Shown: one piece after another, positions 31,527 to 50,175 of the stretch | Layout of the letters: every line of letters starts with the position of its first letter | Numbering within the stretch: position 1 is the first letter of the stretch | NCBI GenBank assembly: GCA_029224465.1 | Contig: JAQXUQ010000026.1 | Coordinates: 1-64,000 of the forward strand | DNA length: 64,000 nt | From: Bacillota bacterium | GTDB lineage: Bacteria > Bacillota > Clostridia > Lachnospirales > Lachnospiraceae | Direction: 5' to 3' | Position numbers and translations under genes: made by a program | Notes under the pieces: generated by a model | Seen by the model: only the letters and a program-made list of their open reading frames with translations | Databases searched by the model: none | What the model was told of the DNA's origin: nothing

Positions 31527-32612
31527 TCAGTCCTTCAGGCGCCTTGCGCAGTTCATCCAGAGCTGTCCCTGAATGCGCAGATAATTCGGCAGGTTCGAAA
31601 ACGCAAACGGCACTTTTCCGCCAATGTACAGCGGAAGGATATGATCCAGCTCTTCACTACCGTCAATTGCCGCTTCTTCGCATATGCTGTCTTTGCGGTA
31701 AGGAAGACCGGCCGAAAGAAAAAGATCCCGTTCCTTCGCCATTTCCTTCAGATATTTCCCGCGGCGCAGCCCCTGCGTGTATGCCTCTCCGAGCCCTTTT
31801 CTCTTGAAATAAGTCTCTTTGATCAGCCTGCCGAGCCCGATGAGAGGCGCATTGAGCACGTATTGGAGCGCGGGCATGTTTTTATACAGAAGATACGCAT
31901 TATTGCCGGACGCCATGGACTCCTTGAACGGATTGTGCACCGAGCCGGAGGAGGCGCTGCCCGCGTGATAGACAATGGCTTTCGGCGCGTACAGATTTCT
32001 GTAACCGTAAATCGCGGCGCGGTAGCCGATGTCCACATCCTCGAGATAACAGTAGTGACGCTCATCGAACAGACCAATGCGGTCAAAAACCGACATGCGG
32101 TAAATCGCGGCACCTGCGCAGGCGGAAAAAATTTCGCCCGCTGTATTATAATGGTCCCTGCTCCTGGCCTTGCCTCTGGCAAATGCCCAGCCGAGCGCGC
32201 AGTACAGATCGCCCGCGTCGTCGATCACTGCAGGGTCCTTCAGAGACAGCATTTTTGCCTGTGCGCTGAATGCCCGCTGATTCTGCACAATCGCGGTATA
32301 CAGCTCTTCGACGAAGCGCGGATCGGCCTTCGTATCATTGTTGAGAAGAATCACATACGGCGTTTTCGTCAGATGCAGCCCGCAGTTCACCGCGTGGCAG
32401 AAGCCGGTATTGGCTTCCAGCCGGTAAAGCAGCACCTGCGGATACTTCTCCCTGACGCTCTCGCAGCTTCCGTCCGTGGAATGATTGTCCACGACAATAA
32501 TCTTCGGCACAAAAGTTCCCGCAAGCAGAGAATCTATGCAGTCTTCAATATACTGCAGCCCGTTGTAATTCGGTATCACAACAGTGATGAGACCCGTTTT
32601 CGATATTCCCAT
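31527..32612 (-). CDS. GT2-family glycosyltransferase (rhamnosyltransferase-like)
   Basis: Single-domain 361-residue GT-A enzyme. VVIPNYNGLQYIEDCIDSLL (about 11-30), VVDNHSTDGS, the nucleotide-metal LLNNDTKADP (about 99-108), and the RIGLFDERHYCYLEDVDIGYRA acceptor-side motif match WbbL-like rhamnosyltransferases. GGTGGAG precedes the ATG, which follows the stop of the upstream glycosyltransferase by 1 bp. It is cytosolic or membrane-peripheral. The linkage made is not predictable. Confidence 0.9.
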   Translation of the reverse strand: MGISKTGLITVVIPNYNGLQYIEDCIDSLLAGTFVPKIIVVDNHSTDGSCESVREKYPQVLLYRLEANTGFCHAVNCGLHLTKTPYVILLNNDTKADPRFVEELYTAIVQNQRAFSAQAKMLSLKDPAVIDDAGDLYCALGWAFARGKARSRDHYNTAGEIFSACAGAAIYRMSVFDRIGLFDERHYCYLEDVDIGYRAAIYGYRNLYAPKAIVYHAGSASSGSVHNPFKESMASGNNAYLLYKNMPALQYVLNAPLIGLGRLIKETYFKRKGLGEAYTQGLRRGKYLKEMAKERDLFLSAGLPYRKDSICEEAAIDGSEELDHILPLYIGGKVPFAFSNLPNYLRIQGQLWMNCARRLKD

Positions 32613-32613
32613 T

Positions 32614-33960
32614 TTACTCCACCTTCCGCGTCATGGAAGGATCAAAGACCACCAGATACCCCATGTTCCTTGCCTGCCGGCAGAATTCCAGCGACTGCAG
32701 GGTCAGGACTCTTCTGTCTCCCTTTTTCATGATATGCGATTCATATTCCGAATTGAAAACGGTCTGGTAGAGCGGTCGCAGCTCCTCCCGGATCTGCATG
32801 CAGCGCACATCCACGGCCGCCGCGTCCTGCACCGAATCCGCGCGGTGGGCGGGTCCGCTCTCCATCACATGCATGCCGGCAAAACAAACCGTGCCGTCCT
32901 CCTGCATCATGCCGCCGATGATCCTGTTTTTCCGGTTTAATACCTTGCCGCCGACGGCGCCCACGTCCGGCCTCGCGGTAAAGATATCCGGATGGTAGGT
33001 CACGCTGTAAAAGCCCCTGTGCCTGCCTTCCGCGACGTCCGCGGTGATGCCGCAGGAGTGCAGATAGCTCTCCAGCGCGCGTTTTCCGGCTTCATAAGCA
33101 TAGTTTTTACTGTCCGGATTTCCGGCTGTCGATCCCCTGTGCATGCGCCAGTGGTAAAGCACCTTCGGCACATGGCAGACACAGGACCAGGGTGCGCGGA
33201 GAATCAGGTCATAATCCTGCGCGCCGTCGTATTCGCTGCGAAGCCGCAGCGCGAGGAACAGCTCCCTCTTCATCACAAACAGATGACAGATATAATTGTT
33301 CGTCAGAAGGTAGTCCGCGTTGAAGTCCGGCTTGATATTCGGTTCGAAGAAATGCCGCGCCGTCTCATCGCATTTGTCTTCATCGGTATAAACGATCTCC
33401 GGCTGCTTCCGCATCAGCACTTTCGTCACTTCGCAGCACGCGTCCGGCGTTAAAAGATCATCGTAGTCAAGCAGCGCGATATAATCTCCGGCAGCGTGCC
33501 CGGCTGCCGCGTTCGTATTGCGCGAAATGCCGCCGTTGCGCGGGAGACGGTAGTAGTGAATGCGTCCGTCTTCAAAAGAGTCTGCAATCTTTTCTGCCAC
33601 AGTCCCGAATCCGGCTTCCCCGGAGGAGCTGCTGTCCGGATCACTTCCATCCGCAAGAATCACCTCGAAGTTGCCGAATGTCTGCCCGAGCACCGAAGAG
33701 AGCATCTCACGCAGAAACGTTTCATTCGGATTATAGAGTGGAACGAGGAAACTGATGAGGGGCAGATGAATGTTCGCGTCTTCCAGCGCCGCACGGTACG
33801 CGGAACGCTGTTTCTCCAAATCGGCAAGAGCCGGCGCCTCATAGGAATATGAAGTGCCGGTTCTTTCCCGCAGCCGTTCTCTGGCCGCGTAAAATGTGTC
33901 CGCGAGGCCGTTGCGCCCCGCGTATCGTATTGTTTTCCGGATATCGTCTAGAAAAGACAT
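32614..33960 (-). CDS. GT2-family glycosyltransferase with remnant second domain
   Basis: The 448 residues start with a conserved N-terminal linker and a full GT-A domain (ISFLVPLYNPNETFLREML, ADGSDPDSS, GGISRNTNAAAG, and the metal-binding DYDD near residue 168). They continue with the WRMHRGSTAGN motif shared with the 675-residue enzyme of this operon. That enzyme has a complete second GT-A domain; here only its later part is seen (VGAVGGKVL, FAGMHV, and EFCRQARNMGYLVVFDP), with the nucleotide-binding half missing. The frame is intact, so this is a shortened protein rather than a frameshift. AAAGGTAACG precedes the ATG. Confidence 0.87.
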   Translation of the reverse strand: MSFLDDIRKTIRYAGRNGLADTFYAARERLRERTGTSYSYEAPALADLEKQRSAYRAALEDANIHLPLISFLVPLYNPNETFLREMLSSVLGQTFGNFEVILADGSDPDSSSSGEAGFGTVAEKIADSFEDGRIHYYRLPRNGGISRNTNAAAGHAAGDYIALLDYDDLLTPDACCEVTKVLMRKQPEIVYTDEDKCDETARHFFEPNIKPDFNADYLLTNNYICHLFVMKRELFLALRLRSEYDGAQDYDLILRAPWSCVCHVPKVLYHWRMHRGSTAGNPDSKNYAYEAGKRALESYLHSCGITADVAEGRHRGFYSVTYHPDIFTARPDVGAVGGKVLNRKNRIIGGMMQEDGTVCFAGMHVMESGPAHRADSVQDAAAVDVRCMQIREELRPLYQTVFNSEYESHIMKKGDRRVLTLQSLEFCRQARNMGYLVVFDPSMTRKVE

Positions 33961-33974
33961 AAGCCGCGTTACCT

Positions 33975-35702
33975 TTAAAGGAGCGCTTTTACCGCATCCG
34001 TAAGCTCTTCGTTTTTCTTCGCCGCGTCTTCAAGGCCGGTTCCCTTTACGCCCATGTAGAACTTGATCTTGGGTTCCGTGCCCGAAGGTCTTGCGCAGCA
34101 CCAGGCGTCCTTGTCCAGCTCGAAGTAAAGGACATTGGACTTGGGCAGTCCCGTCGTTCCTTCCGCGCCCGAAGCAGGGTCCAGTGTCTTTCCGGTCTCA
34201 TAGTCACGGAACTGCACAACCTTCCAGTCCGCGAACTGCTTCGGCGGATTCGCGCGGAGCTTGTCCATAAGAGCCGCGATTTGTTTTGCCCCGTCCATGC
34301 CGGGCATCGTGATCGCAAGCTGCGATTCCTTGTAATAACCGTACTCCTCATAAATGCGGAGCATCTGATCCCAGAGCGTCAGCCCCTGCTTCTTATAGAA
34401 AGCAGCCGCTTCGCACAGCATCATGACGGCTGCCGGTGCGTCCTTGTCGCGCGCATGCGTCCCGGGCAGGCATCCGTAGGACTCCTCCAGACCGAAGACA
34501 TAATTGTACGAATGCTGCTCTTCAAAGAGCCTGATCTGCTCGCCGATATATTTAAAACCGGTCAGAACTTCCACATAGTGCAGGCCGTATTTCTCCGCGA
34601 CCGCCTTTGCGAGGTTCGTCGTTACGATCGTCGTTACAAACGCGGGATTCTCCGGCATCGTTCCGGTCTTTGTTCTCTCGCGCAGAATATACTCTCCGAT
34701 CAGCATGCCGGACATATTGCCGGTGAAGGCCATATACTCGCCGGTCTTCGTATCCTTCGCGTAAATGCCGAGACGGTCCGCGTCCGGATCGGTCGCAAGC
34801 ACGATGTCGGCGTCCTTTTCCTTCGCGAGCGCAAGCGCAAGCTTGAACGCTTTGGGGTCCTCGGGATTCGGATATTCGAGCGTTGTGAAATCCGGGTCAG
34901 GATCTCTCTGCTCCGGCACAACATAGACATGCTTGAAGCCGAGTTCGGAAAGGACTCTGGTTACCGGCACAAGGCCCGCGCCATGGAAAGGCGTGTAAAC
35001 GATCCGGATATCGTCCGCCATCTCACGGATGACATCGGGATGGATAATCTGTTTCTTGAGCGCTTCCATATAGGCGTCATCGACTTCACTCCCGAAATAG
35101 ACAAGAAGTTCCTGCGCCTTCGCGTCCTCTTCCTTCATAGTCCGGACATCATTGTAATCGGTCACCGCGTTGACATCCGCAATAATGCCGGTATCGTGCG
35201 GCGGCGTTACCTGCGCGCCGTCTTCCCAGTAAACCTTGTAGCCGTTATATGCGGGCGGATTGTGAGAAGCCGTAATCTCGACACCTGCCTGGCAGCCAAA
35301 ATAGCGGAGAGCGAATGATTCCTCCGGAACCGGACGCAGTGTATCGGAAAGGTATGCCTTGATGCCGTTTGCCGCAAGGCACAGGGCCGTCTCCTTCGCA
35401 AACTCCGGCGACATTCTTCTCGAGTCATAGGAAATCGCGACGCCCTTTTTCGGATCGCCGTTCTTTAAAATATAGTTTGCAAGTCCCTGCGTCGCCTTGC
35501 GGACCGTATAAATATTCATGCGGTTCGTGCCGGCGCCGATCACGCCGCGAAGGCCGCCCGTGCCGAAAGCGAGGTCCTTGTAGAAACGGTCCTCGATTTC
35601 CTTTTCGTCCCCCTGCACAGACCGCAGTTCCTCTTTGGTCTTCTCGTCAAAATACGGATCCGTGAGCCAGTAATTCAGCTGCTTCTGTACTCTTTCCAGC
35701 AT
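33975..35702 (-). CDS. phosphoglucomutase/phosphomannomutase (PgcA-like)
   Basis: Interconverts hexose-1- and hexose-6-phosphates. Glucose-1-phosphate is the substrate of RfbA and the precursor of UDP-glucose, which explains its place in this operon. The 575-residue length and motifs fit the Firmicutes PgcA group: FGTGGLRGVIGAGTNRMN, the phosphoserine loop EITASHNPPAYNGYKVYW (about 140-157), metal-binding ATDPDADRLG (about 305) and the sugar loop GLEESYGCLPGTHARDKD. The C-terminal phosphate-binding CARPSGTEPKIKFY is intact. GGGAGGTATGACAC precedes the ATG. Confidence 0.93.
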   Translation of the reverse strand: MLERVQKQLNYWLTDPYFDEKTKEELRSVQGDEKEIEDRFYKDLAFGTGGLRGVIGAGTNRMNIYTVRKATQGLANYILKNGDPKKGVAISYDSRRMSPEFAKETALCLAANGIKAYLSDTLRPVPEESFALRYFGCQAGVEITASHNPPAYNGYKVYWEDGAQVTPPHDTGIIADVNAVTDYNDVRTMKEEDAKAQELLVYFGSEVDDAYMEALKKQIIHPDVIREMADDIRIVYTPFHGAGLVPVTRVLSELGFKHVYVVPEQRDPDPDFTTLEYPNPEDPKAFKLALALAKEKDADIVLATDPDADRLGIYAKDTKTGEYMAFTGNMSGMLIGEYILRERTKTGTMPENPAFVTTIVTTNLAKAVAEKYGLHYVEVLTGFKYIGEQIRLFEEQHSYNYVFGLEESYGCLPGTHARDKDAPAAVMMLCEAAAFYKKQGLTLWDQMLRIYEEYGYYKESQLAITMPGMDGAKQIAALMDKLRANPPKQFADWKVVQFRDYETGKTLDPASGAEGTTGLPKSNVLYFELDKDAWCCARPSGTEPKIKFYMGVKGTGLEDAAKKNEELTDAVKALL

Positions 35703-35724: not shown

Positions 35725-37752
35725 TTAATCCTGTACTTTCAGTGAAAAATCACTTCTGTCCAGCGTGAAATTCGGATTGTAGTAAGGATCGCCCTTCTCG
35801 ATTACCTCTTTCCACTTTGCACGGAAGTGCTCCGCTTCCCTGTCATAGCGTTTCGCGTTCGCGCTGTGCGGATCCTCCACATCAGAACCGCGCGAAAGCG
35901 ATTCATAATGGTAGAGCTCCGCGAACGGAGTAAATACATTCAGATAGTTCTTCTGCCGGCAGCGAAGACAAAAGTCAACATCATTGAGAGAAACTTCAAA
36001 TGTCTCGTCCAGGCCGCCCAGCTCGTCATAAATGCGCTTTTTCACCATCAGGCACGCGCCGGTCACCGCGCTCATGTTCTGCGCGTAGCAAAGACGCCCC
36101 ATGTAGCCCAGATTCTCGCGCCGCTGCCGGTAATGCACATGCCCTGCCGTCCTGTGCGCGCCAAGACCGATCACGATTCCCGCGTGCTGGATTGTCTTGT
36201 CCGGATAATAGAGCTTGCCGCCGACGCAGGCAACATCGTCTCTTTGCGCGTACATCAGAAGTTCCTCGATCCAGTTGAGCGAAATCACTTCCGTGTCATT
36301 GTTCAGAAGCAGGATATATTCCCCGCGCGTTTTTGAAACACCGAAGTTGTTAATGCGCGAATAGTTGAAGGTTTCGCCTTCCGCGTATTTATATTCTACT
36401 ACAGATACGCGGTCTTTGTATGGTCCGCCCGTCACTTCTTTGTAGTAACGCTTCGTCTCTTCCTGCGTGCTGCCGTTTTCGACGATAATGATTTCATAGT
36501 TCTCGTAGGTCGATTTTTCAAAGATCGAGGTCAGACAGCGTTTGAGATCCTGCGCGTGATCCCTGTTCGCGATCACAATACTGACCAGCGGATCACCCTG
36601 AATCTCATAGGTGATTTTGAAGATCGTCTCAAACGCGCGCGTCGAGGTAATCTTGAAATTCCGAAAGCCGTGGCGGCGCAGATGATCCGCGACAGCGCCT
36701 TTGGCGGCGTCGATCGCGTATGTTTTGGCGGCAATATTTCCCGCGGTGGAACCCGCGTGACTTCTCCAATAATACAGGAGTTTCGGCACATGCACAATCC
36801 TGCGTGCCTTGTCCGTCAGCCGCAGAATCATGTCGTGGTCCTGCGAGCCGTCAAACTCGCTGCGGTAGAGCTCTTCTCCTTCCAGAAGCTTCCGGTCAAA
36901 ACAGGACAGATGACAGATATAATTGTTCGCCCGGAGATTGTCAATCGCGTAGTCCGGCTTGAAATGAATCGTCACAAAGTGATTCAGGTTCGATTCCCGG
37001 AACGTCGTCTCGTCGCAGTACAGATAATCGGCGCCCTGTTCGTTGATGACCTTCGCGTACTCGTACAAAACAGACGGGTGCAGGTAGTCGTCATGGTCAA
37101 ACGGCGCGATGTAATCTCCCTCCGCAAGCGCGAGACATTGATTTGTATTGTAGGATATACCGCCGTTTTTATCGAGCTTCTTATATGCAATCCTCTTCGA
37201 GAGGTTTTCACTGCGGCTTCTGTATTCGGCGACAACCTTTCCGACATAAGCGTGAGCATCGTCCGAACCGTCCGCGAGGCAGAGCTGCCAGTTGTCATAG
37301 GTCTGGTTTAAAACCGAATCCAGCATGTCCCGCAGGTACTCTTCGGGCGTATTGTACAGCGGCACAAGAATGCTGAACAGGACGCGGTTCTGAAAAGCCG
37401 CCGATTCCTTTTCCTGTCTTTCCCGCTCTTCTTTGTCCGGAAAGCTTGCGGTTCCATATCCCTTAACGGCCTGTTTTTCGCGGATTTTGTACTGCACCTT
37501 TTTGAGGACGCCCTTCGCGTCCCCCTGATTGCGGATGCGGTCCGCCTGCCGCCGCACAAAATGATACACCTCTCTCGCGGGCTTCGACGCCTTCCAGAGT
37601 CCGTTGTTGTGGATACGGTCCAGCTTGAACTGCAGATCATCCACCTGATCCTCGAGCGACGCCACCCGTTCGAGAAGAAACGCAGCCTTCGCCCGTTCCT
37701 TCTCGTAGGCTTCTTTATAATCTTTTATCTCGTCTTTGTTCTGTGTATCCAT
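35725..37752 (-). CDS. bifunctional glycosyltransferase with two GT2 domains
   Basis: The 675 residues carry an N-terminal coiled coil (about 8-50), a first GT-A domain (ILVPLYNTPEEYLRDMLDSV, LADGSDDAHAY, NGGISYNTN, metal-binding DHDD near residue 225), a WRSHAGSTAGN linker and a second GT-A domain (VSIVIANRDHAQDLKRC near 392, VENGS, LLLNNDTEV near 475, and SLNDVDFCLRC). Tandem domains like this are found in enzymes that build repeat units alternately. AGTGAGG is a weak ribosome site, and the ATG is 4 bp after the stop of the preceding gene. Confidence 0.92.
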   Translation of the reverse strand: MDTQNKDEIKDYKEAYEKERAKAAFLLERVASLEDQVDDLQFKLDRIHNNGLWKASKPAREVYHFVRRQADRIRNQGDAKGVLKKVQYKIREKQAVKGYGTASFPDKEERERQEKESAAFQNRVLFSILVPLYNTPEEYLRDMLDSVLNQTYDNWQLCLADGSDDAHAYVGKVVAEYRSRSENLSKRIAYKKLDKNGGISYNTNQCLALAEGDYIAPFDHDDYLHPSVLYEYAKVINEQGADYLYCDETTFRESNLNHFVTIHFKPDYAIDNLRANNYICHLSCFDRKLLEGEELYRSEFDGSQDHDMILRLTDKARRIVHVPKLLYYWRSHAGSTAGNIAAKTYAIDAAKGAVADHLRRHGFRNFKITSTRAFETIFKITYEIQGDPLVSIVIANRDHAQDLKRCLTSIFEKSTYENYEIIIVENGSTQEETKRYYKEVTGGPYKDRVSVVEYKYAEGETFNYSRINNFGVSKTRGEYILLLNNDTEVISLNWIEELLMYAQRDDVACVGGKLYYPDKTIQHAGIVIGLGAHRTAGHVHYRQRRENLGYMGRLCYAQNMSAVTGACLMVKKRIYDELGGLDETFEVSLNDVDFCLRCRQKNYLNVFTPFAELYHYESLSRGSDVEDPHSANAKRYDREAEHFRAKWKEVIEKGDPYYNPNFTLDRSDFSLKVQD

Positions 37753-37756
37753 AGCC

Positions 37757-39844
37757 TCACTTTACTGTCAGCGTAACATCCGACCAGTTCACGATATTGC
37801 GTCTTGATGTGCGGTCGTCCGCCAGCATGCCGACGAGGTAGCTTCCCTTCGGCAGCGCGTCGGAAGTGATCACCGCGCCGAAGCCGGTCAGCCTGTCATT
37901 GATCTGATCCGTCAGATTCGCGGCAATATCCTCGCGGTACATGCTGCGCGCCGGCAGTGAGAATACATCGCCCGACTGCTCGTTCTTTAAAAGAATCTTC
38001 CGCTCATATACGGCATTATCCGCATTGATGACAAACGAATACCCCTTGATATAGTATCCCTGTCCTTCCATGATCGGATGCAGCGCGTACGGGCCGGTCA
38101 GCCACCGGTCCAGACTGTTCGCGAATTCAACGCCGAGGCGCAGCACGGGATCGGTCCACTCGGGCTTTATCTTGCTGGTGACCAGCTGCGGCGTCACATA
38201 CTCCGGATGGCGCAGGCTCGCGTCCTCGGCCGCGACGCGGAATCTTGTGACCGCGGGATCCTGGTCCAGATACGGGTGATAAAACGGGTCCCGTTCAAAG
38301 AGCGCCGGATGCATCTTCAGGAGCGCTTCCTGCTCCCCGGAAAGCCGCAGAGATTTGATCTGGTCCTTCCTGTCGTCTCCTCTGGAGAGCGACTCATGAT
38401 GATAAAGATACATGTTGTTGCGGACAACATTGTAATAACCGAGCTCGAAAATTTTAAGGCACAGGTCAATATCATTGAAGGCAACCGCAAAGTGCTCCTC
38501 GTCGAAGCCGCCCGCCTGCTCAAAGACTTCCGCCCGCACCATCAGGCACGCGCCGGTCACCGCGATCACATTCCGGACGCCTTTATTGAATCCGAAATAA
38601 TGTACTTCCTTATTGCTGCAGTACTGGAGCTTGTGAATCGGGCCGGCATGCACGTTGACAACGCCCGCGTGCTGGATAATATCCGAGTTCGGATATAAAA
38701 GCTTCGTACCGACTGCGCCGACATACGGAAGCTTTGCCTTCTCCGAAAGATAGGAAAGCCAGTTCGGCTTCGCGACCGTAATATCGTCGTTCAGAAAAAG
38801 CAGCAGCTCCCCGTTCGCATGCCGTGCTCCGAGATTGCACATTTTCGAGAAGTTGAACGGCATCGGCTCATAGACATACTCGTAGCCGCCGATGTCTTTT
38901 TCCCCGTGTACCCGGAGCGTCCGTTCGACCCACGCGCGGTTCTCCTCATTACTGCCGTTGTCGACGACAATGATTTCATAAGGCGAGGACTTGGTATTCT
39001 CCTCGATGGACTTGATGCAGTCAAGCAGCACTTTCGGATTATCCTTGCTGGGGATAATAATGCTGACGAGCCGCTGCGAAGCGGATTCGTCGCTGAAGCG
39101 CCCTGTCAGAGACCCGCGGATCAGGTTGCTGTCCCAGGGCGTCAGCTTCCTGGACGCATGAAACAGCACTTCCGGAATATGACCGATCGGGAATCTGCCC
39201 GCGTTTCTTCTGGAAAATCCGCCGTCGGCCTGCGCGATTTTCAGGCACAGGCTCCCGTAGATCCATGAGCGCATACGCTCGTCCAGTTCCGCCGAAGCCG
39301 CTTCCTTTTCTTCCTCGCTGTCCGCGGCGATGCTCGCTCTTGACTCGAACGCGGCCGCGGTCCGCTCGCCCGGATTGATCAGCATCAGCTCGCTTGCCCT
39401 GATCGCAAAGATGCTGCCGAAGTAAAAAGTGGAGAGAAATGTATCCGGCGACCAGTCCGGTTTCAGCCATGGATCGGTCAGATGGCCGTGTTCATCGAGT
39501 CTGTCCTCATCGCCGTAAACCATGTTGATCAGCGGGTTCTCCGCGAAATAATCGCGGATCAGTGTCTCCGCTCCGCGGGCAAGTGTCCCGTCGTCCTCGC
39601 AGGCGATAATAATGTCGCAGTCCACCTTGCCGGAGAGAATATAGCTTCGAAGGTGCGAGTATCTGACAACTTCCACACGGAAGGCTTTGCCCCTCGTATG
39701 GTCCTTTTCGACCAGCTGCCGGTCCAGGTCCTGCAAGTGATATTTATACCAGACAGCGTAAATATCGCTTTTTTCGTGAAGTTCGTTTTCGTACCTTGCG
39801 TCGTATTTGCGCTGAAGATACTGTTTAACTGCCTGCTTGAGCAT
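37757..39844 (-). CDS. multidomain GT2-family glycosyltransferase with C-terminal beta domain
   Basis: The 695-residue protein begins with a degenerate GT-A-like domain (about 65-240; DIIIACEDDGTLARG, VYGDEDRLDEHG, LKPDWSPDTFLSTFYFGS) and has a complete second GT-A domain (VSIIIPSKDNPKVLLDCI near 263, VVDNGSNEENR, LLFLNDDITV near 350, and AFNDIDLCLKI). The last about 130 residues (565-695) look like a beta-sandwich with no catalytic motif, comparable to the tail of the neighbouring methyltransferase-kinase protein. AAAAGGAG precedes the ATG. Confidence 0.9.
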   Translation of the reverse strand: MLKQAVKQYLQRKYDARYENELHEKSDIYAVWYKYHLQDLDRQLVEKDHTRGKAFRVEVVRYSHLRSYILSGKVDCDIIIACEDDGTLARGAETLIRDYFAENPLINMVYGDEDRLDEHGHLTDPWLKPDWSPDTFLSTFYFGSIFAIRASELMLINPGERTAAAFESRASIAADSEEEKEAASAELDERMRSWIYGSLCLKIAQADGGFSRRNAGRFPIGHIPEVLFHASRKLTPWDSNLIRGSLTGRFSDESASQRLVSIIIPSKDNPKVLLDCIKSIEENTKSSPYEIIVVDNGSNEENRAWVERTLRVHGEKDIGGYEYVYEPMPFNFSKMCNLGARHANGELLLFLNDDITVAKPNWLSYLSEKAKLPYVGAVGTKLLYPNSDIIQHAGVVNVHAGPIHKLQYCSNKEVHYFGFNKGVRNVIAVTGACLMVRAEVFEQAGGFDEEHFAVAFNDIDLCLKIFELGYYNVVRNNMYLYHHESLSRGDDRKDQIKSLRLSGEQEALLKMHPALFERDPFYHPYLDQDPAVTRFRVAAEDASLRHPEYVTPQLVTSKIKPEWTDPVLRLGVEFANSLDRWLTGPYALHPIMEGQGYYIKGYSFVINADNAVYERKILLKNEQSGDVFSLPARSMYREDIAANLTDQINDRLTGFGAVITSDALPKGSYLVGMLADDRTSRRNIVNWSDVTLTVK

Positions 39845-39860
39845 TTACACTCCTTTTGCT

Positions 39861-42011
39861 TTACCGCATGGCGGCCGCCATTGTGGACGGCAGTCCGCAC
39901 ATCTGCAGTGTGAAATGAACAAAACGCGTCTTCGCAGAATTCTCTCTCCTGCGCAGCTTTTTTATATCCCACTCCATGTTCGGGTCATCGGTCGCAAAAA
40001 CCAGCGCCGGTTGTTCTGTCACCGCGTTGCTTGTTAAAGATCTCCGGAACGCGCCGGCATCCGCAAGCACCGTTCCGTCTTCCGCCATCATGACCGCGTC
40101 CCGAAGAAGTACGACGCAGGGACACAGGGCGGGATCCACGCGGAGACGCCGCACATTGCCTTGTACCGGGACAGCAAAGCGGATCATCCCTTCTTCCTCA
40201 TAACGCTCGGAGACAAAGTACGCCTCGTCTTCATTATACCCTTTTCCGGTGTCGTAATACACACGGACCGCTGTCAGGGAACCGGCCTGTTCCTGCTTCT
40301 CTCCCGCCGCCCGCTCTTTCTGCTCCTTCGTCTGCAGCTCCGCGGGAATAATGACCTGCGTGCCGGTCTGCGCGCGGAAATCGCCGAGCGCCTGCATGCC
40401 GCCCGTCACTTCCATCTGGAACCGGCGTTCCTCTTCCATAAGGTGCTCCGCTCCGCTCTTTGTCAAGCCGCAGATCCGTTCGGCAAAGTCTTCGCCAAGC
40501 AGCGCGTCCAGATCCTTCGCGCGGCGTTTGTTTTCCAGCCTGTACAAAAGAAGCGCCCGGTACAGTAGCTCATTTGCGGGAATGCAGCGGTCCGTTTCCC
40601 ACTCGTAGTCCACCGCGGTCCAGGAGTCTCCGTCAACCAGAAGATTCGCGAAGGTCATGTCCTGATCTGCCGCGGGAAGGTTTTCCCTGCAGGACAGGCG
40701 CTCCCTGTATTCTTCGATGAGCCGCAGGAACCCGTCCTTGTCCTGCTCTGTAAGGCACGCGTCCAGCAGCGCTTCAAGCGGTTCTCCCTGCACGTAGTCA
40801 AAACATACGCTGCCGTCATCCATCAGCCTGCACGGGGCGACCCGGATGGACCTTGAAGGTTTCTGTCCGCTCTCATCCGCGGCATCACATTCCCGCGCTT
40901 CAAAGCGTGCCCGCAGCTTCTCATACGACTCCGCCATTCTTCTGACATGATCCCGTGCCTCTTTCGTCAGAGGATATTTGAGAATCCGGCGCGGATTTTC
41001 CAGAAGCTCTGTCCGGATCCGGTAGCGCGGCGCGCGGTCATTGGAGAACTTCGCGTAGGAAACCGGAAGCGGATCTCCTACGATAACCTCGAACGAATTG
41101 GCAAAGACCGGATACAGTCCGTCCCGCGTTATTCCCTCATAGGCTTCATGCTCATCGAAAAGAAGAAGCCGGTCCATGTCGAAATTGCGGATGTTGTCGG
41201 TCAGCTCGCTCCCGTCCGGCAGCCGGGTGTCGGAATAAATGCTGCTCATGAACTTGTAGTCCGGATACGGATAATAGAACGAGTATTCGTTCATGCCCGA
41301 GCCGCGCAGGATTTTTTCGAGCGCGGGTCTTGAAAACGTCGTCGCGGGGTGGTCTGCCGGATAGTTCTCGATCCCGTCAAAATAACGCGCGGAATGATCC
41401 TCTTTGCAGCCCGCAAAATACTTCAGTCCCAGCCGGTTCTCGATCGCGATCACAATGCGCCCGGCCGGCGCTTTCCGCAGGTGCGCGGAAATGCGGCGGA
41501 GCTCCTCACGGAACGGGTCCTCCGCCTTGATATAACTGCCTGCGTACTCGAATACGCCGATCAGAAAGATATAGTCATAGTCGCAGGGAAGGTGCGGCTC
41601 GATATCCTCGAAATTGCCGACCACGATCCTGACGTTACCGCAGTCTTTGTGGCGGTACGCATTGATCAGAGAGCGTTTCCTTGAAAGCTCCACGCAGGTC
41701 ACCTGCGCGCACTTCTCCGCGAGAACGCCGGTGATGGCGCCGGGTCCCGCGCCGATCTCGAGAACCTTTTCGTTTCCGGTAAACGGAATCCAGTCCACGA
41801 TATTACCGCGGATCGAAGAAAGGTGATACAGCACCGGCCAGCTCTTCTTCTCCCGGATGATTTCCTCGAAGCGCTCTGCGGGGTTGTTCTTCACGATCTC
41901 CAAAATCTCGTCCTCGACCGCGCCGTCGCAGTAATAATCCTCGCCGGGATAGTAGGTGTAATCGAGCGTCACCTGTCCGATTTTTTCAGTTCTGCTGCCT
42001 GCTTCCTGCAT
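39861..42011 (-). CDS. methyltransferase-kinase fusion, WbdD-like, with extra C-terminal domain
   Basis: The 716-residue protein has three parts. Residues about 60-260 are a class I SAM methyltransferase (motif I VLEIGAGPGAITG at 83-95, CVELS at 106-110). Residues about 300-545 look like a eukaryotic-type/APH kinase: lysine in ILKYPLTKEA (K345), hinge VCFDYVQGEPLEALL, catalytic loop DQDMTFAN with D451 and N456, and D468 in VDYEWE as the DFG aspartate. The rest is a beta-rich domain. A methyltransferase-kinase pair matches WbdD, which phosphorylates and methylates the non-reducing end of the E. coli O9a polymannose to stop growth. It overlaps the exporter ATPase gene by 26 bp. The ATG at 42009-42011 has AAAGGTG ten bases upstream; a TTG two codons earlier is possible. 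Confidence 0.82.
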   Translation of the reverse strand: MQEAGSRTEKIGQVTLDYTYYPGEDYYCDGAVEDEILEIVKNNPAERFEEIIREKKSWPVLYHLSSIRGNIVDWIPFTGNEKVLEIGAGPGAITGVLAEKCAQVTCVELSRKRSLINAYRHKDCGNVRIVVGNFEDIEPHLPCDYDYIFLIGVFEYAGSYIKAEDPFREELRRISAHLRKAPAGRIVIAIENRLGLKYFAGCKEDHSARYFDGIENYPADHPATTFSRPALEKILRGSGMNEYSFYYPYPDYKFMSSIYSDTRLPDGSELTDNIRNFDMDRLLLFDEHEAYEGITRDGLYPVFANSFEVIVGDPLPVSYAKFSNDRAPRYRIRTELLENPRRILKYPLTKEARDHVRRMAESYEKLRARFEARECDAADESGQKPSRSIRVAPCRLMDDGSVCFDYVQGEPLEALLDACLTEQDKDGFLRLIEEYRERLSCRENLPAADQDMTFANLLVDGDSWTAVDYEWETDRCIPANELLYRALLLYRLENKRRAKDLDALLGEDFAERICGLTKSGAEHLMEEERRFQMEVTGGMQALGDFRAQTGTQVIIPAELQTKEQKERAAGEKQEQAGSLTAVRVYYDTGKGYNEDEAYFVSERYEEEGMIRFAVPVQGNVRRLRVDPALCPCVVLLRDAVMMAEDGTVLADAGAFRRSLTSNAVTEQPALVFATDDPNMEWDIKKLRRRENSAKTRFVHFTLQMCGLPSTMAAAMR

Positions 42012-43260
42012 CTTCAATTGTCACCTTTGAATTCATGTCGTAGTATCCGACCGTGTTTTTGCCTGATACCACGGTCATGTTCATGACATCATAGAGCCTG
42101 TGATAAACCGTGAAATCCTCGCCTTCATAGCCGGTCACGCCGAATGATATCAGGTATTCCCCGCCCTGCAGGTCGACTTTCTGCCGGAAGGAAATGATTT
42201 TGACGTCCCCTTTGGAGACCGGCTCCAGAAACGCCTTTTCGAACATGGTGTTGGTGCCGGTGATCTCGACGCCGTACTTGTTTTTGATCGTGAACGCGAA
42301 AATCGGCGCCTTTATATCCTCGTTGAAGCGCACCTTCATCCGGAACGTGCACTCGGCGCCCTTCATGATCGTCGAGTTCGGATTGCCCCGGTCGTCCAGA
42401 ATCGTGTAATCGACAATCGCGGCTTTCAGGGATCCGTACTCGAGCGTTTCCCTGTTGACCGGCACCTTGTTCACACGCTCCGGCACCTTGGCGTTTTCCT
42501 TCTTCGCATCCGGGTCATACTGGCCGACCAGCACCTGCTTGTAGATGTCGATCATTTCCTTCGGATCGCCCTCGCCGAGCTTGTGCCCCTGATTTAAAAG
42601 GACCACGCGGTCGCAGTATTTGCTGATGCTCGAGAGGTCGTGGGAGACGAACAGGACTGTTTTGCCCTGCTCTTTGAATTCTTCAAATTTGTGAAAACAT
42701 TTCGCCTGAAAAAAAACATCCCCGACCGCAAGCGCTTCATCCACGATCAGGATTTCCGGATCGATGTTGATCGCGACCGCGAACGCGAGGCGCATGAACA
42801 TACCGGAGGAATACATCTTGACCGGCTGATAGATATACTCGCCGATGTCCGCGAACGAAAGTATCGAATCCATCCGGGCTTCAATTTCCTGCTCGGTAAA
42901 GCCGATCATCGTGCCGTTGAGATAGATGTTCTCAATACCGTTGTACTCCATGTTGAAGCCGGCACCCAGTTCCAGAAGCGCGGAAATGCGCCCGTTCACC
43001 TTAACTTCTCCGGAAGTCGGCGTCAGAACGCCCGTGATGATCTTCAAGATCGTCGATTTTCCGGAGCCGTTCGTCCCGATAATACCGACAGTCTCGCCTT
43101 TGTAGATCGTCATGTCGACATCGTCGAGCGCCATGTGTTCGGTGTAGCGCGGCTTCCTCGAAAGGCCGAGCGCGTCGATGACGCGGTCTCTGTTATGCGC
43201 GTACAGTTTATATTTCTTTTTCAGATGCGATACCTGTATCGCGATTTTCCGATCCTGCAT
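41986..43260 (-). CDS. polysaccharide ABC exporter ATPase, Wzt type, with C-terminal carbohydrate-binding domain
   Basis: Energises export of a finished lipid-linked polysaccharide through the Wzm-like permease. The 424 residues have an N-terminal ATPase: Walker A GIIGTNGSGKST (about 54-65), ABC signature YSSGMFMRLAFA, Walker B ILIVDEALAVGD and the VLFVSHD switch. After about residue 265 a beta-sandwich of Wzt_C type follows (KAAIVDYTILDDRG, FTIKNKYGVEITGTNT, GGEYLISFGVTGY). In E. coli O9a that domain binds the modified chain end made by WbdD, and a WbdD-like protein is encoded next door. The ribosome site is weak; it starts 4 bp after the permease stop. Confidence 0.92.
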   Translation of the reverse strand: MQDRKIAIQVSHLKKKYKLYAHNRDRVIDALGLSRKPRYTEHMALDDVDMTIYKGETVGIIGTNGSGKSTILKIITGVLTPTSGEVKVNGRISALLELGAGFNMEYNGIENIYLNGTMIGFTEQEIEARMDSILSFADIGEYIYQPVKMYSSGMFMRLAFAVAINIDPEILIVDEALAVGDVFFQAKCFHKFEEFKEQGKTVLFVSHDLSSISKYCDRVVLLNQGHKLGEGDPKEMIDIYKQVLVGQYDPDAKKENAKVPERVNKVPVNRETLEYGSLKAAIVDYTILDDRGNPNSTIMKGAECTFRMKVRFNEDIKAPIFAFTIKNKYGVEITGTNTMFEKAFLEPVSKGDVKIISFRQKVDLQGGEYLISFGVTGYEGEDFTVYHRLYDVMNMTVVSGKNTVGYYDMNSKVTIEDAGSRQQN

Positions 43261-43264
43261 AGAC

Positions 43265-44263
43265 TTACATTACATCCGCGAACTGCGGCTTGAGCTTCTT
43301 GAAGATCAGCGACGAAATGACAAAAAGCAGCGATGTCGCGATCCAGAAATAGGTGCTGGAATAAAAGTGCGTAAAGAACCATTCGTGGCCGTATACCGAC
43401 ATGCGGTAGCCTTCCACGATATAGGTCATCGGATTCAGCTTGATGATCCACTTCACTTTATCGGGAACCATGTTGATGTTCCAGAGAATGGGCGTCGCCC
43501 ACATGCCGACCTGCATGATGATTCCCACAATCTGCTGCAGGTCCCGGAAAAACACCACGATCGAGCACGTCGCATAGGACAGCCCCAGAATCAGGATGTA
43601 CTCGCAGAACGAATAGTACAGCAGCTGCAGCCAGTACACGCTCGGCGGATAACCGTAGAACCAGGCAATCAGAAGCAGCACGGCAGTAAAGCCGACATGC
43701 ACGAACATTGCCGCCGTGATCTTGATGATCGGCAGCACGCTGATTTTGAACAGCACTTTTTTGACGAGGTAATTATATTCGAGAAGGGAGGTCATCCCGC
43801 CCGTTACCGCGTCGGAGAAGAAAAACCACGGCACAAGGCCGGCCGTCAGGAACAGAACATACGGCACCTCAATTCCCGCGGAGGTCCTTTGCGGTCCGGA
43901 ACCGAAAATCCTGTCAAAAACAACCCAGTACATGATGACCGTCACAACCGGCGGCACCATCGCCCAGATCGTGCCGAGATAGGAACCGGCGTAACGTTTC
44001 TTGAAATCGTTGCGCGAAAGCCGCCAGATCAGCCGACGGTTCTGGTACAGCTCCTGCGGCAGCTGTGTGATTTTATCGTACAAAGCCGTAAACAGCACCG
44101 TGCCGAGGCCGAGAAGGAGACTTCCCGAAATTTTCTTGAGGCGCGCCGTATCCGGATCTTCCAGCGGATTGTTGTGGAGAATGAGGATACAGAACAACAC
44201 CGCGGCGGCCAGCCAGACGAGCAGAAGGATGCATTTTTTCCTGTTTCGTAATTTATTATCCAT
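43265..44263 (-). CDS. polysaccharide ABC exporter permease, Wzm type
   Basis: Membrane channel of the exporter. The 332-residue protein has an ABC2-type membrane domain from about residue 70 (RRLIWRLSRNDFKKRYAGSYLGTIWAMVPPVV, six predicted helices, ending with MTYIVEGYRMSVYG and a final helix). Before it are about 60 residues with two extra hydrophobic segments (LLLVWLAAAVLFCILIL and LLLGLGTVLFTALY), absent from classical Wzm proteins. The chosen ATG (44261-44263) is 23 bp after the rfbC stop; a longer frame would begin inside rfbC. No good ribosome site is seen. Confidence 0.88.
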   Translation of the reverse strand: MDNKLRNRKKCILLLVWLAAAVLFCILILHNNPLEDPDTARLKKISGSLLLGLGTVLFTALYDKITQLPQELYQNRRLIWRLSRNDFKKRYAGSYLGTIWAMVPPVVTVIMYWVVFDRIFGSGPQRTSAGIEVPYVLFLTAGLVPWFFFSDAVTGGMTSLLEYNYLVKKVLFKISVLPIIKITAAMFVHVGFTAVLLLIAWFYGYPPSVYWLQLLYYSFCEYILILGLSYATCSIVVFFRDLQQIVGIIMQVGMWATPILWNINMVPDKVKWIIKLNPMTYIVEGYRMSVYGHEWFFTHFYSSTYFWIATSLLFVISSLIFKKLKPQFADVM

Positions 44264-44286
44264 AAGTGCGTCCGCGTCCCGCAGGA

Positions 44287-44904
44287 TCACAGATTTCTTT
44301 CCTTCCTGTACTGCGCAATGCCGGCCCACTTCTGGTCCTTATCGGAAAGCGTAAGCGGCGTTCCGTCGCCAAGCGCGTAGCCTGCGGCGCAGGGAGTTCC
44401 GTCATAGGATCCTGTAACCTGCGGCCATTCGATACCGATGCCAGGATCGTTCCAGGCAATGCCCGCTTCATCATTCGGATGCCAGAAATCATCCACCTTG
44501 TAGCAGAACTCCGCCTCGTCCGATAAAACAAGAAAGCCGTGCGCGAAATTCTTCGGGATAAAGAACTGTTTCTTGTTTTCCGCGCTGAGGACAACGCCGA
44601 ACCACTTGCCGAACGTTTCCGAACCGGGGCGCAGATCTACCGCCACATCGAAGACGGTTCCGTTCACGACTCTCACGAGTTTGGACTGGGCGTACTGAAT
44701 CTGGAAATGCAGGCCGCGGAGCACGCCCTTCTTGGAGGACGACTGGTTATCCTGCACGAACTCGCAGTCGATGCCCGCTTCCTCAAAATCCTTTTTCTGA
44801 TACGTTTCCATAAAATATCCGCGGTCGTCTCCATGGACGGAAGGCGTAATTACCTTGAGTCCCCTGATGCCGCCGCAGTCATTTTCCACACTGATCTGTC
44901 CCAT
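44287..44904 (-). CDS. rfbC: dTDP-4-dehydrorhamnose 3,5-epimerase
   Basis: Epimerises dTDP-4-keto-6-deoxyglucose at C3 and C5. The 205-residue cupin has VITPSVHGDDRGYFMETYQKKDF in its N-terminal half, the catalytic His in VLRGLHFQ (about 60-67), VDLRPGSETFGKW, and FFIPKNFAHGFLVLSDEAEFCYKVDDFW. The C-terminal about 30 residues are slightly longer than usual. AAGGAGTAACAGT precedes the ATG. About 115 G+C-rich bases without a gene separate it from rfbA. Confidence 0.95.
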   Translation of the reverse strand: MGQISVENDCGGIRGLKVITPSVHGDDRGYFMETYQKKDFEEAGIDCEFVQDNQSSSKKGVLRGLHFQIQYAQSKLVRVVNGTVFDVAVDLRPGSETFGKWFGVVLSAENKKQFFIPKNFAHGFLVLSDEAEFCYKVDDFWHPNDEAGIAWNDPGIGIEWPQVTGSYDGTPCAAGYALGDGTPLTLSDKDQKWAGIAQYRKERNL

Positions 44905-45020: not shown

Positions 45021-45899
45021 TCAAAGCCCGTTCGCGATGTCGCACAGATACCTGCCGTAATTTGTCTTCATAAGCGGCTGTGCGAGCTTCAGCAGCTGCT
45101 CTCTGTCGATAAAGCCGCGTTTGTACGCGATCTCTTCGATGCAGGAAATATACAGTCCCTGCCGTTTCTGGAAAGCCGCGACAAAGTCGGCCGCATCCAG
45201 CAGCTGGTCGTGCGTGCCGGTATCCAGCCACGCGAAGCCTCTTCCGAGCGTCTCCACCCGCAGTGTTCCGCGTCTTAAATACTCGTTGTTGATGCTCGTG
45301 ATTTCGATTTCGCCGCGGGCCGAAGGCTTGACGTTCTTCGCGATTTCCACGACATCATTGTCATAGAAGTAGAGGCCCGGAACCGCGTAATTGGACTTCG
45401 GATGCTCGGGCTTTTCCTCGATCGAAACCGCCTTTCCGTCCCTGTCGAATTCGACAACGCCATACGCCTTCGGGTCGCGGACATAGTAGCCGAAGATTGT
45501 CGCTCCGCCTTCTCTCGATACGCGCGCATTTGTATTCAGAAGAACTCTCGAGAAGCTCTGGCCGTAGAAAATGTTGTCGCCGAGGACCAGCGCGCACGCG
45601 TCATCTCCGATGAAATCCGCGCCGATGATGAATGCTTCCGCGAGGCCGTTGGGCTTTTCCTGTACTCTGTAGGAAAAGGACATGCCGAGCTGGGAGCCGT
45701 CGCCTAAAAGCTCCTCGAAAACCGGCAGATCTCTCGGCGTCGAAATGACCAGCACTTCACGGATTCCCGCAAGCATCAGCGTGGAGAGCGGATAATAGAT
45801 CATCGGCTTGTCATACACCGGCATGATCTGCTTGGAGATTGCCTTTGTCAGAGGATACAGTCTTGTGCCGGAACCCCCGGCAAGAATTATACCTTTCAT
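45021..45899 (-). CDS. rfbA: glucose-1-phosphate thymidylyltransferase
   Basis: Joins glucose-1-phosphate and dTTP to dTDP-glucose, the first step to dTDP-deoxysugars. The 292 residues are normal for Rml[22 protein letters not shown] at the N-terminus, [32 protein letters not shown] (catalytic Asp near 110), and [19 protein letters not shown]. The rest matches short RmlA forms. It is only 3 bp after rfbB, with a weak ribosome site, and is probably coupled to it. Confidence 0.96.
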
Positions 45900-45902
45900 G
45901 GC

Positions 45903-47000
45903 TTACCCGATCACCTTTCTGTCGCCGTACATCTTTTCATAATACTGCTGATAATTTCCGGACGTTATATGCTCCATCCAGTCCATGTGGTCAAAATACC
46001 ACTTGATCGTCCTCCGGATGCCTTCCCGGAACATGGTCTCGGGAAGCCAGCCCAGCTCTTTATGAATCTTGTCCGGCGCGATCGCGTATCTTCTGTCATG
46101 CCCTTTTCTGTCTTCGACGTATTCGATGAGATCTTCGGAAACATTTGCCTTCCTCGGATCGTCATCCGAAAGCTCCTCGCGCAGCACCTCGATGATGGTT
46201 TTTACGATCTCGATATTCTGCTTCTCGTTGTGGCCGCCGACATTGTAGGTCTCGCCGCTGACGCCTTTCTCCGATACAAGGTCAATGGCCTTGCAGTGGT
46301 CTTCGACGTACAGCCAGTCACGGACGTTTTTGCCGTCGCCGTAAACCGGAAGCTTCCTGCCCGCCAGCGCATTGTTGATCATCAGGGGAATCAGCTTCTC
46401 CGGGAACTGGTAAGGGCCGTAATTGTTCGAGCAGTTCGTGATATTCATCGGGAAGCCGTAGGTATCATGATACGCCTTGACCAGCATGTCCGAGGACGCC
46501 TTGGAAGCGCTGTAAGGACTGTGCGGCTGATAGGGCGTCGTCTCATAGAAATACGCGTCCGGATCCTCGGGAAGAGAGCCGTAAACCTCGTCTGTCGAAA
46601 CGTGGCAGAACTTCTTCCCCTCGCGGAACGAGCCGTCCGGCAGCTCCCAGGCTTCCTTCGCGCAGTTGAGCATGTTCGCGGTACCGAGGACATTCGTCTT
46701 TACAAAAAGCTCCGGCTCCCTGATCGAGCGGTCGACATGGGACTCGGCCGCAAAGTGGATGACCCTGTCGACGTCATAAGCATGAAAAACAGCACGAATC
46801 GCATCCTTGTCACAGATGTCCGCCTTCACGAAATGGTAATTCGGAAGGTCCTCAACATCTTTGAGGTTCTCCAGATTGCCGGCATACGTCAGCTTGTCGA
46901 CATTGATGATTTCAATCGAATCCCCGTATTTGCCGAGCATGTAATGAATAAAGTTGGAGCCGATGAAGCCGGCGCCGCCTGTAACCAGATATGTTTTCAA
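45903..47000 (-). CDS. rfbB: dTDP-glucose 4,6-dehydratase
   Basis: NAD-dependent dehydratase giving dTDP-4-keto-6-deoxyglucose. The extended SDR protein has the Rossmann motif VTGGAGFIGSNF at the N-terminus, HFAAESHVDRSI, STDEVYGSLP and the catalytic YSASKASSDMLV. The predicted start is TTG at 46998-47000, because CAGGAGG lies 8 bases before it; an upstream ATG in frame (at 47034-47036) lacks a site and would add 12 residues. That gives 365 residues. It is the first gene of the polysaccharide operon and follows an extended -10 promoter. Confidence 0.95.
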   Translation of the reverse strand: MKTYLVTGGAGFIGSNFIHYMLGKYGDSIEIINVDKLTYAGNLENLKDVEDLPNYHFVKADICDKDAIRAVFHAYDVDRVIHFAAESHVDRSIREPELFVKTNVLGTANMLNCAKEAWELPDGSFREGKKFCHVSTDEVYGSLPEDPDAYFYETTPYQPHSPYSASKASSDMLVKAYHDTYGFPMNITNCSNNYGPYQFPEKLIPLMINNALAGRKLPVYGDGKNVRDWLYVEDHCKAIDLVSEKGVSGETYNVGGHNEKQNIEIVKTIIEVLREELSDDDPRKANVSEDLIEYVEDRKGHDRRYAIAPDKIHKELGWLPETMFREGIRRTIKWYFDHMDWMEHITSGNYQQYYEKMYGDRKVIG

Positions 47001-47048
47001 ATCAGAATTCCTCCTGTGATTGATCAAAAGCCGCAAAAAGCCGTATAC

Positions 47049-50095: not shown

Positions 50096-50175
50096 GCATC
50101 CCCCTGTAACTTTCCTGTCCTGCAGCGCAAAAGGGCGCAGTATGCCCCTGTGCAAAATGACCATAATATGTAGGA

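Follow-up and report, generated by a model that had tools for sequence, protein, structure and literature searches.

A split-module variant of the O7-type chain terminator beside a Wzm/Wzt exporter in the Lachnospiraceae, with a predicted methyl-phosphate cap

Background

What could end the chains of an exported glycan in a Gram-positive bacterium, and what could tell the exporter that a chain is finished? The question is raised by a contig of a member of the Lachnospiraceae (Bacillota; GenBank assembly GCA_029224465.1, contig JAQXUQ010000026.1, positions 1 to 64,000), of which we analyzed the whole stretch of 64,000 nucleotides, hereafter the window. One of its genes encodes a protein with a methyltransferase, a kinase and a beta-rich domain, which we call the terminator, and overlaps the gene of Wzt, the ATPase of a glycan exporter. 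The combination of methyltransferase and kinase in one protein, with an exporter bearing a Wzt_C domain next door, makes it probable that chain ends are capped and that the cap triggers export. A first-pass annotation of the same DNA had proposed this as well, by way of WbdD of Escherichia coli: capping and export are retained here as probable, but the enzyme family to which they were tied was wrong. We find that the terminator is a split-module variant of the ORF6 type of Klebsiella pneumoniae O7, rather than a strict member of it. We consider it likely that it caps the end of a rhamnose glycan with methyl phosphate, thereby stopping the polymerase and licensing export by Wzm/Wzt.

Several capping systems have been described, and we refer to them according to parts of the cited papers. 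In E. coli, chains end in methyl in O8 and in methyl phosphate in O9 and O9a (PMC3482155, PMC11231755). ORF6 of K. pneumoniae O7 is composed of a methyltransferase, a previously unannotated kinase of 223 residues, an Ig-like domain, a coiled coil and two GT2 modules that depend on deoxythymidine diphosphate (dTDP)-rhamnose. Its kinase resembles AmiN, an enzyme also described as an aminoglycoside kinase, and the coil is regarded as the ruler of chain length in the O7-type system. ORF6 phosphorylates the terminal rhamnose at O3 and methylates that phosphate, incompletely in vitro, and its D441A variant loses activity (PMC11231755). Orthologues are reported from alpha- and gammaproteobacteria and cyanobacteria, and homologues from Methanoculleus; the term Gram-positive is absent from the main text of that paper (PMC11231755). 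In Geobacillus stearothermophilus, WsaE and Wzt are associated with a 2-O-methyl cap and a proposed cap-dependent export of the S-layer glycan (PMC2943079), and the Gram-positive setting is therefore less new than the first-pass annotation implied.

Domain organization of the terminator

The terminator gene lies at 39861..42011 on the minus strand and encodes 716 residues from an ATG at 42011; the full open reading frame (ORF; 39861-42017) would give 718 residues from a TTG start. It shares positions 41986-42011 with the ORF of Wzt, the 26-bp overlap reported earlier. The first domain (residues 1-297; 41121..42011, minus strand) is a class I S-adenosylmethionine (SAM) methyltransferase; four Pfam methyltransferase-type families scored above cut-off on stretches within residues 72-241. 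We aligned the window protein with 63 of its 80 best relatives, omitting 17 (L053 and L076 for broken frames, the others by choice). Residues E85, G87, G89 and G91 of the SAM motif, which had been claimed from the window alone, were unchanged in all 64 proteins, and P90 was replaced by Cys in 55. Beyond the methyltransferase part, no Pfam match was found up to E 0.1.

The second domain (residues 298-548; 40368..41120, minus strand) is an APH/Bud32/RIO-like kinase. Its landmarks K345, D451, N456 and D468, proposed in the first-pass annotation, are invariant in all 64 proteins and in a second alignment of 29 (the window protein and 28 of 29 fetched relatives, L029 being left out). The three residues that follow D468 (Y469-E470-W471) are likewise invariant in the 64. 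An AlphaFold2 model of the kinase region alone had a mean predicted local distance difference test (pLDDT) value of 90.6, and its best structural matches were kinases, with RIO, Bud32/PRPK, APH and WaaP in the lead and APH structures at the top of the VIA list. The full-length model (pLDDT 89.5) gave VIA matches that, among those listed, all fall in the methyltransferase region. By sequence the kinase signal is weak: NCBIfam returned a Bud32 match at E 0.01 (residues 343-471), and the 29-sequence profile of the terminator found protein kinases among the best 60 of its 183 matches (GCN2 at 1e-4, JAK2 at 2e-3). The kinase profile alone reached GCN2 at 0.005, ranked below a spurious repeat protein, and Pfam matches on the 64 kinase regions were scattered, each occurring in at most four of them (APH in one, E 0.043).

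The third domain (residues 578-716; 39864..40280, minus strand) is beta-rich in the AlphaFold2 model and may be a carbohydrate-binding module. It had been noted as foreign to WbdD, and this holds. The O7 type has an Ig-like domain after the kinase. In the window protein, Pfam gave nothing for the third domain at E 0.1 or below. In an alignment of 40 of the 64 proteins, Pfam matches were again scattered, each in one of the 40; the profile built from it retrieved nothing from the PDB up to E 5 and showed no relation to the Wzt_C domain of the window.

Comparison with O7-type enzymes

A tblastn search against plasmids returned two Gram-negative homologues of the terminator, the only records matched. 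Pseudomonas asturiensis carries wzm and wzt together with a gene for a protein of 1,457 residues, in which Pfam recognizes a methyltransferase and two GT2 domains. In Citrobacter braakii, rmlBACD, wzm and wzt are followed by the gene of a 649-residue terminator homologue and then by glycosyltransferase (GT) genes; E. coli genomes gave no DNA match (E 1e-5) to this Citrobacter terminator gene. BLASTP aligned the window protein co-linearly with the Pseudomonas protein over residues 58-650, that is, from the methyltransferase through the kinase into the beta domain (E 4e-40), and with the Citrobacter homologue over residues 16-261 (E 2e-38). The kinase profile also recognized the Pseudomonas protein (hhalign probability 94, E 9e-8).

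The Pseudomonas protein stood in for ORF6 of O7 in all sequence comparisons. The six SAM residues printed for O7 (Y28, Y66, G91, G93, E112 and Y158) occur in it under identical numbers, and they align with Y27, Y62, G87, G89, E108 and Y156 of the window protein; E108 is replaced by Asp in 41 of the 64 aligned terminators. D451 of the window aligns with D443 of Pseudomonas, two numbers away from D441, the residue proven in O7. Where APH structures head the VIA list for the window kinase, AmiN took the corresponding place for O7 (PMC11231755).

Fused and split versions of the same modules occur among relatives. A Lachnospiraceae protein of 1,364 residues (L097) carries methyltransferase, kinase, beta domain, coil and GT2-GT2 in one chain. 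The protein encoded two genes downstream of the terminator in the window (35725..37752, minus strand) is homologous to the C-terminal half of such fusions, with 60% identity to that of L097 over 689 columns and 38% to that of the Pseudomonas protein over 553 columns. Its GT modules carry the motifs DHDD and NND, where the O7 counterpart has DXDD and NXD (PMC11231755). Elsewhere, L180 has the methyltransferase alone followed by a kinase-beta-GT2-GT2 protein of 1,057 residues, and L178 and L179 have the methyltransferase alone followed by a kinase-beta protein. Because of this homology with the C-terminal halves of fusions, the window appears from its sequence to hold the same machine as the O7-type fusion, in two pieces and with an extra GT gene in between.

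The position of the coil makes the terminator a variant rather than a strict member of the O7 type, since it lies on the separate polymerase. There it forms a short segment of 45 residues (residues 6-50; 37603..37737, minus strand), found by a crude home-made heptad scan that is indicative only. The same scan placed a coil in L097 at 683-742 and recovered the positive controls, WbdD of O9 (within 590-697) and of O8 (within 247-350); the Pseudomonas protein, however, was positive at 721-748 only.

The resemblance to O7 comprises the order of methyltransferase and APH-like kinase, followed by a beta or Ig-like domain of weak homology, a dTDP-rhamnose GT2-GT2 polymerase and a pathway through an ABC transporter, and for O7 the capping of the terminal rhamnose by methyl phosphate has been demonstrated (PMC11231755). 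The O7 enzyme differs in being a single polypeptide with its coil, and in serving a Gram-negative lipopolysaccharide. In the window, terminator and coil-bearing polymerase are separate genes with a GT gene between them, and the system belongs to a Gram-positive family and has a LytR-CpsA-Psr gene in its cluster.

Relationship to WbdD

A transferred WbdD was our first idea, and the terminator had been called WbdD-like. In architecture the comparison is sound: methyltransferase and kinase come in the same order as in WbdD of E. coli O9, beside a Wzt with Wzt_C and an Arg-x-Tyr-Asp motif (PMC3482155; locus L161). A full-length Foldseek search ranked WbdD first, with five WbdD entries in the top ten (best E 7e-10, 583 columns), which makes the architectural analogy real. 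Membership in the family is another matter. BLASTP detected no homology to the O9 protein, whose identity as WbdD was confirmed (E 0.52), or to WbdD of O8 (E 0.12); the kinase profile gave an hhalign probability of 0.1 against O9 WbdD, and a search of the whole terminator against PDB by sequence returned methyltransferases only, without WbdD up to E 1. The profile of the whole protein did reach O9 WbdD (hhalign probability 77, E 2e-5), over columns 77-447, which start in the methyltransferase. As the kinase profile fails on the same target, we attribute this match to the methyltransferase, for which it favors a remote link.

The template-modelling (TM) score of the Foldseek match to WbdD was just 0.19 by query length and 0.29 by target length. 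The model has a kinase fold, as the WbdD comparison had led one to expect, but searched alone the kinase retrieved RIO, Bud32/PRPK, APH and WaaP first, and WbdD was not among the 50 matches listed, an absence that does not exclude it. WbdD of O9 also has a C-terminal coil, which the crude scan did not detect in the terminator, and acts on mannose chains; no beta domain is described in the parts of the paper considered (PMC3482155). We therefore dropped the first idea on the failure of BLASTP and of the kinase profile. That the terminator is a true WbdD-family member that reached a Gram-positive is largely refuted by the sequence tests and seems to us barely credible.

A phosphate-type signature in Wzt_C

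Wzt (41986..43260, minus strand) has 424 residues. Its predicted cap-reading domain, Wzt_C, occupies residues 273-409 (42034..42444, minus strand), where PF14524 matched at E 3.2e-43, which bears out the Wzt_C-like tail suggested by the first-pass annotation. The best PDB match of the domain is 2r5o, the O9-type domain (E 3.7e-13). The closest solved full-length Wzt is that of Aquifex aeolicus WzmWzt (E 5e-77; the match to 8dku covers residues 8-398), whose Trp362 forms a stacking contact with the cap methyl (PMC9445017). Asn337 of the window aligns with Asn313 of Aquifex, and Tyr240 lies at or beside the hinge Tyr233 by hand count (PMC9445017). The methyl-cap pocket differs: Arg388 occupies the column of Trp362 (alignments counted by hand, chain numbers shifted by one). 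This Arg opens the motif R388-L-Y390-D391 (42088..42099, minus strand). In the same column, Wzt of E. coli O8 has Trp and that of O9 has Arg, within DRRYD. On these alignments, Arg at position 388 may serve as a pointer to phosphate in the cap.

We measured how often the motif occurs. Arg388, Tyr390 and Asp391 are present in all 77 aligned Wzt proteins, namely those of the window, of 74 of the 80 best relatives, of Pseudomonas and of Citrobacter; of the six relatives omitted, L097 was read separately and also has R-x-Y-D. In a Bacillota survey, Wzt_C was found in 29 of 299 genomes. Among 30 loci, 24 were readable (six lacked a full-length Wzt and were set aside; three more Wzt_C matches came without a locus), and all 24 genomes were also covered by our phylum-wide terminator search. 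R-x-Y-D occurred in seven of the 24 loci, each from a different genome. It was present in six of the seven survey genomes with a terminator match below 1e-15, the seventh having His-x-Tyr-Asp, and in one of the 17 others (P-value 0.0003, Fisher test, relatedness ignored). That exception, G409, has a methyltransferase gene beside wzt and an ORF with an APH match of 0.0049, below the Pfam cut-off. Twelve further plasmid Wzt proteins were hand-picked as controls among 60 listed of 210 records; of the 11 readable, none had R-x-Y-D or a match to the terminator profiles, and six had Trp.

R-x-Y-D requires four changes on the tree of the ATPase part (against a mean of 10.7 and a minimum of 6 after shuffling) and two on the Wzt_C tree; the tips of both contain the window twice, the second time as L131. 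On the Wzt_C tree, R-x-Y-D domains cluster together with one other, L166, inside (support 0.83). Wzt of O9 and O8 are sisters on the ATPase tree (support 0.91) but lie apart on the Wzt_C tree. This disagreement points to a joint exchange of the cap-reading domain and the capping chemistry.

Two loci depart from the common arrangement. L182 (G271:C1, 4725-6164) encodes a methyltransferase with the same beta domain, in which no kinase was detected, next to a Wzt whose position 388 is Tyr, and may be a methyl-only relative. In L176 (G299:C12), Wzt has His-x-Tyr-Asp, and an additional methyltransferase-GT protein is encoded between wzt and a terminator homologue of 1,260 residues.

Distribution and gene order

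A scan of contigs yielded at least 595 candidate stretches, at least 586 of which were confirmed as terminator relatives. Gene order was compared in the best 80, of which 77 are titled Lachnospiraceae, Acetatifactor or Butyrivibrio, isolates included (the exceptions being L032, L043 and L085). Where 1.5 kb or more of sequence is available upstream (77 loci), Wzt_C is no further than 1 kb away in 74 and at 1.2-4.2 kb in the other three. The gene wzm is present in 65 of 65 and rmlC in 64 of 65, and in 57 of 60 the polymerase gene follows downstream, so that the order rml-wzm-wzt-terminator-polymerase is mostly common to the closest relatives. These counts come from the closest relatives and hence do not describe the whole family. 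Of 250 genomes sampled from the family, own genome included, 129 had a terminator match (E 1e-5), some of these matches being weak or single-domain; of 398 sampled from the phylum, 29 had one, 12 of them with E < 1e-15. L043, titled Candidatus Gastranaerophilales, has a terminator 46% identical to that of the window in the same gene order, which may reflect transfer or a mis-binned contig. In several loci (L041, L048, L054, L061, L100 and others), wzm and wzt are separated by roughly 1.5 kb of additional sequence.

The gene cluster in the window

The terminator belongs to a run of genes on one strand, in the order rmlB-rmlA-rmlC-wzm-wzt-terminator-GT-polymerase-phosphoglucomutase-GT-GT-WcaJ-LCP, where LCP stands for LytR-CpsA-Psr. 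Upstream of wzt, on the minus strand like all genes of the run, lie the ABC-2 type permease gene wzm (43265..44329), rmlC of the dTDP-rhamnose pathway (44287..44904), a nucleotidyl transferase gene (45021..45899; Pfam NTP_transferase) whose product we take to be RmlA, and a dehydratase gene (45903..47036; Pfam GDP_Man_Dehyd/Epimerase) whose product is presumably RmlB. RmlD is not encoded in the cluster, which is explained by a copy elsewhere in the genome. Just upstream of rmlB, 47069-50164 (minus strand) encodes a protein of 1,031 residues with Big_2 and GH25 (lysozyme-type) domains.

Between terminator and polymerase lies the gene of a GT2-containing glycosyltransferase (GTA; 37757..39844), which has a long C-terminal extension past its GT2 domain and sits in this place in many relatives. 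The polymerase gene is followed by those of a phosphoglucomutase/phosphomannomutase (33975..35702), two GT2 glycosyltransferases (32614..33960 and 31527..32612), a WcaJ-type undecaprenyl-phosphate sugar-1-phosphate transferase for chain initiation (30040..31464; TIGR03023 over cut-off) and an LCP protein, a possible glycan-to-peptidoglycan ligase (28431..29912). The LCP gene comes immediately behind that of WcaJ on the same strand, a hint that the glycan is attached to the wall. In Ruminococcus gnavus, also of the Lachnospiraceae, a glucorhamnan appears to be anchored to peptidoglycan (PMC12413058).

The same genome contains a second Wzm/Wzt pair with Wzt_C (L181; G000:C6:118000-130000), followed by a DUF4422 and GT8 protein and with no methyltransferase-kinase detected, perhaps for a second exported glycan.

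Proposed mechanism and alternatives

In the mechanism that we propose, WcaJ would start the chain, GTs would build an adaptor, and the GT2-GT2 protein and a partner would polymerize a rhamnose-rich glycan. On the undecaprenyl-linked chain, the kinase would phosphorylate the sugar at the non-reducing end, which is probably rhamnose, and this phosphate would then be methylated by the methyltransferase. The cap would stop the GT2-GT2 polymerase and be read by Wzt_C, with Arg388 in place of the methyl-stacking Trp. Wzm/Wzt would then export the capped chain, which the LCP enzyme would probably link to the wall.

Several observations weigh against this mechanism. The substrate, the chemistry of the cap, the control of length and the attachment to the wall are deduced, and the O7 comparisons rely on the Pseudomonas protein as a proxy. 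Against the O7 type the beta domain matches weakly (hhalign probability 10, E 0.003); in place of K345, Pseudomonas has His and Citrobacter Arg, and one of the two has Glu in place of D468. No separate coil was found in the terminator, as the crude heptad scan was positive solely inside folded domains. By the survey numbers, R-x-Y-D is not strictly tied to terminators. Wzt of L156 has His although a terminator lies downstream; L139, L140, L155 and L165, where no terminator was detected, have a Wzt with Arg but no Tyr-Asp; and the terminator of G493 is on another contig than its Wzt.

Some of these points would suit a terminator that adds phosphate or methyl phosphate internally or on side chains, neither ending chains nor licensing export. 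The chain-length role and the substrate are deduced, and by the crude scan the protein has no coil ruler of its own. We nevertheless consider such decoration unlikely, because the terminator is fused to, and linked with, the polymerase, because a Wzt_C gene is adjacent in 74 of 77 relatives, and because the O7 enzyme caps terminal rhamnose (PMC11231755). It is more doubtful still that the cap is methyl only, as with WsaE, and that the kinase domain is inactive or structural. WsaE resembles our system in being Gram-positive, in serving a rhamnose glycan, in a terminator gene that overlaps wzt, in a methyltransferase joined to two GT modules and in the proposed cap-dependent export (PMC2943079), and it is an instance of methyl-only capping in a Gram-positive. 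The relative L182, with methyltransferase and beta domain and no kinase detected, and the loss of the ATP-site Lys in the two Gram-negative relatives would fit as well. By its description, however, WsaE makes a methyl cap only, with no kinase named in the parts of the paper considered, and serves an S-layer protein glycan (PMC2943079). The system of the window is not of the WsaE type, in which a methyltransferase is fused to two GT modules and no kinase is named: here a kinase is present and the GTs are on a separate gene. Moreover, the four kinase landmarks are invariant in all 64 terminators, and Wzt has the Arg of the O9 type rather than the Trp of the methyl type. Capping by methyl phosphate through an O7-type split terminator remains our preferred reading.

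Conclusions

A search of the open-licence literature, outside which most subscription journals lie, found no Gram-positive methyltransferase-kinase terminator among the papers listed. On a broader scale, we tentatively suggest, with rather less confidence than for the terminator itself, that gut Gram-positives of a large family carry peptidoglycan-anchored rhamnose glycans with a methyl-phosphate cap, made by an O7-type terminator that splits and fuses freely. Wzt_C would carry a readable cap code (Arg-x-Tyr-Asp for phosphate, Trp for methyl), and the domain would have been swapped as a cassette onto Wzt ATPases at four places of the ATPase tree, each time accompanied by genes for a methyltransferase and for a kinase or a protein like one.

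Our reading carries over to a Gram-positive family, about half of whose sampled genomes match, a capping mechanism that has been proven for the O antigens of Gram-negatives. It proposes functions for the kinase and beta stretches, both without a Pfam match in the window protein, and predicts a specific chemical end group for the glycan. The Wzt_C position would be a predictor of cap chemistry readable from sequence and testable on many clusters. If the reading is true, a wall or surface glycan of a Gram-positive has its chain length set by a cap.

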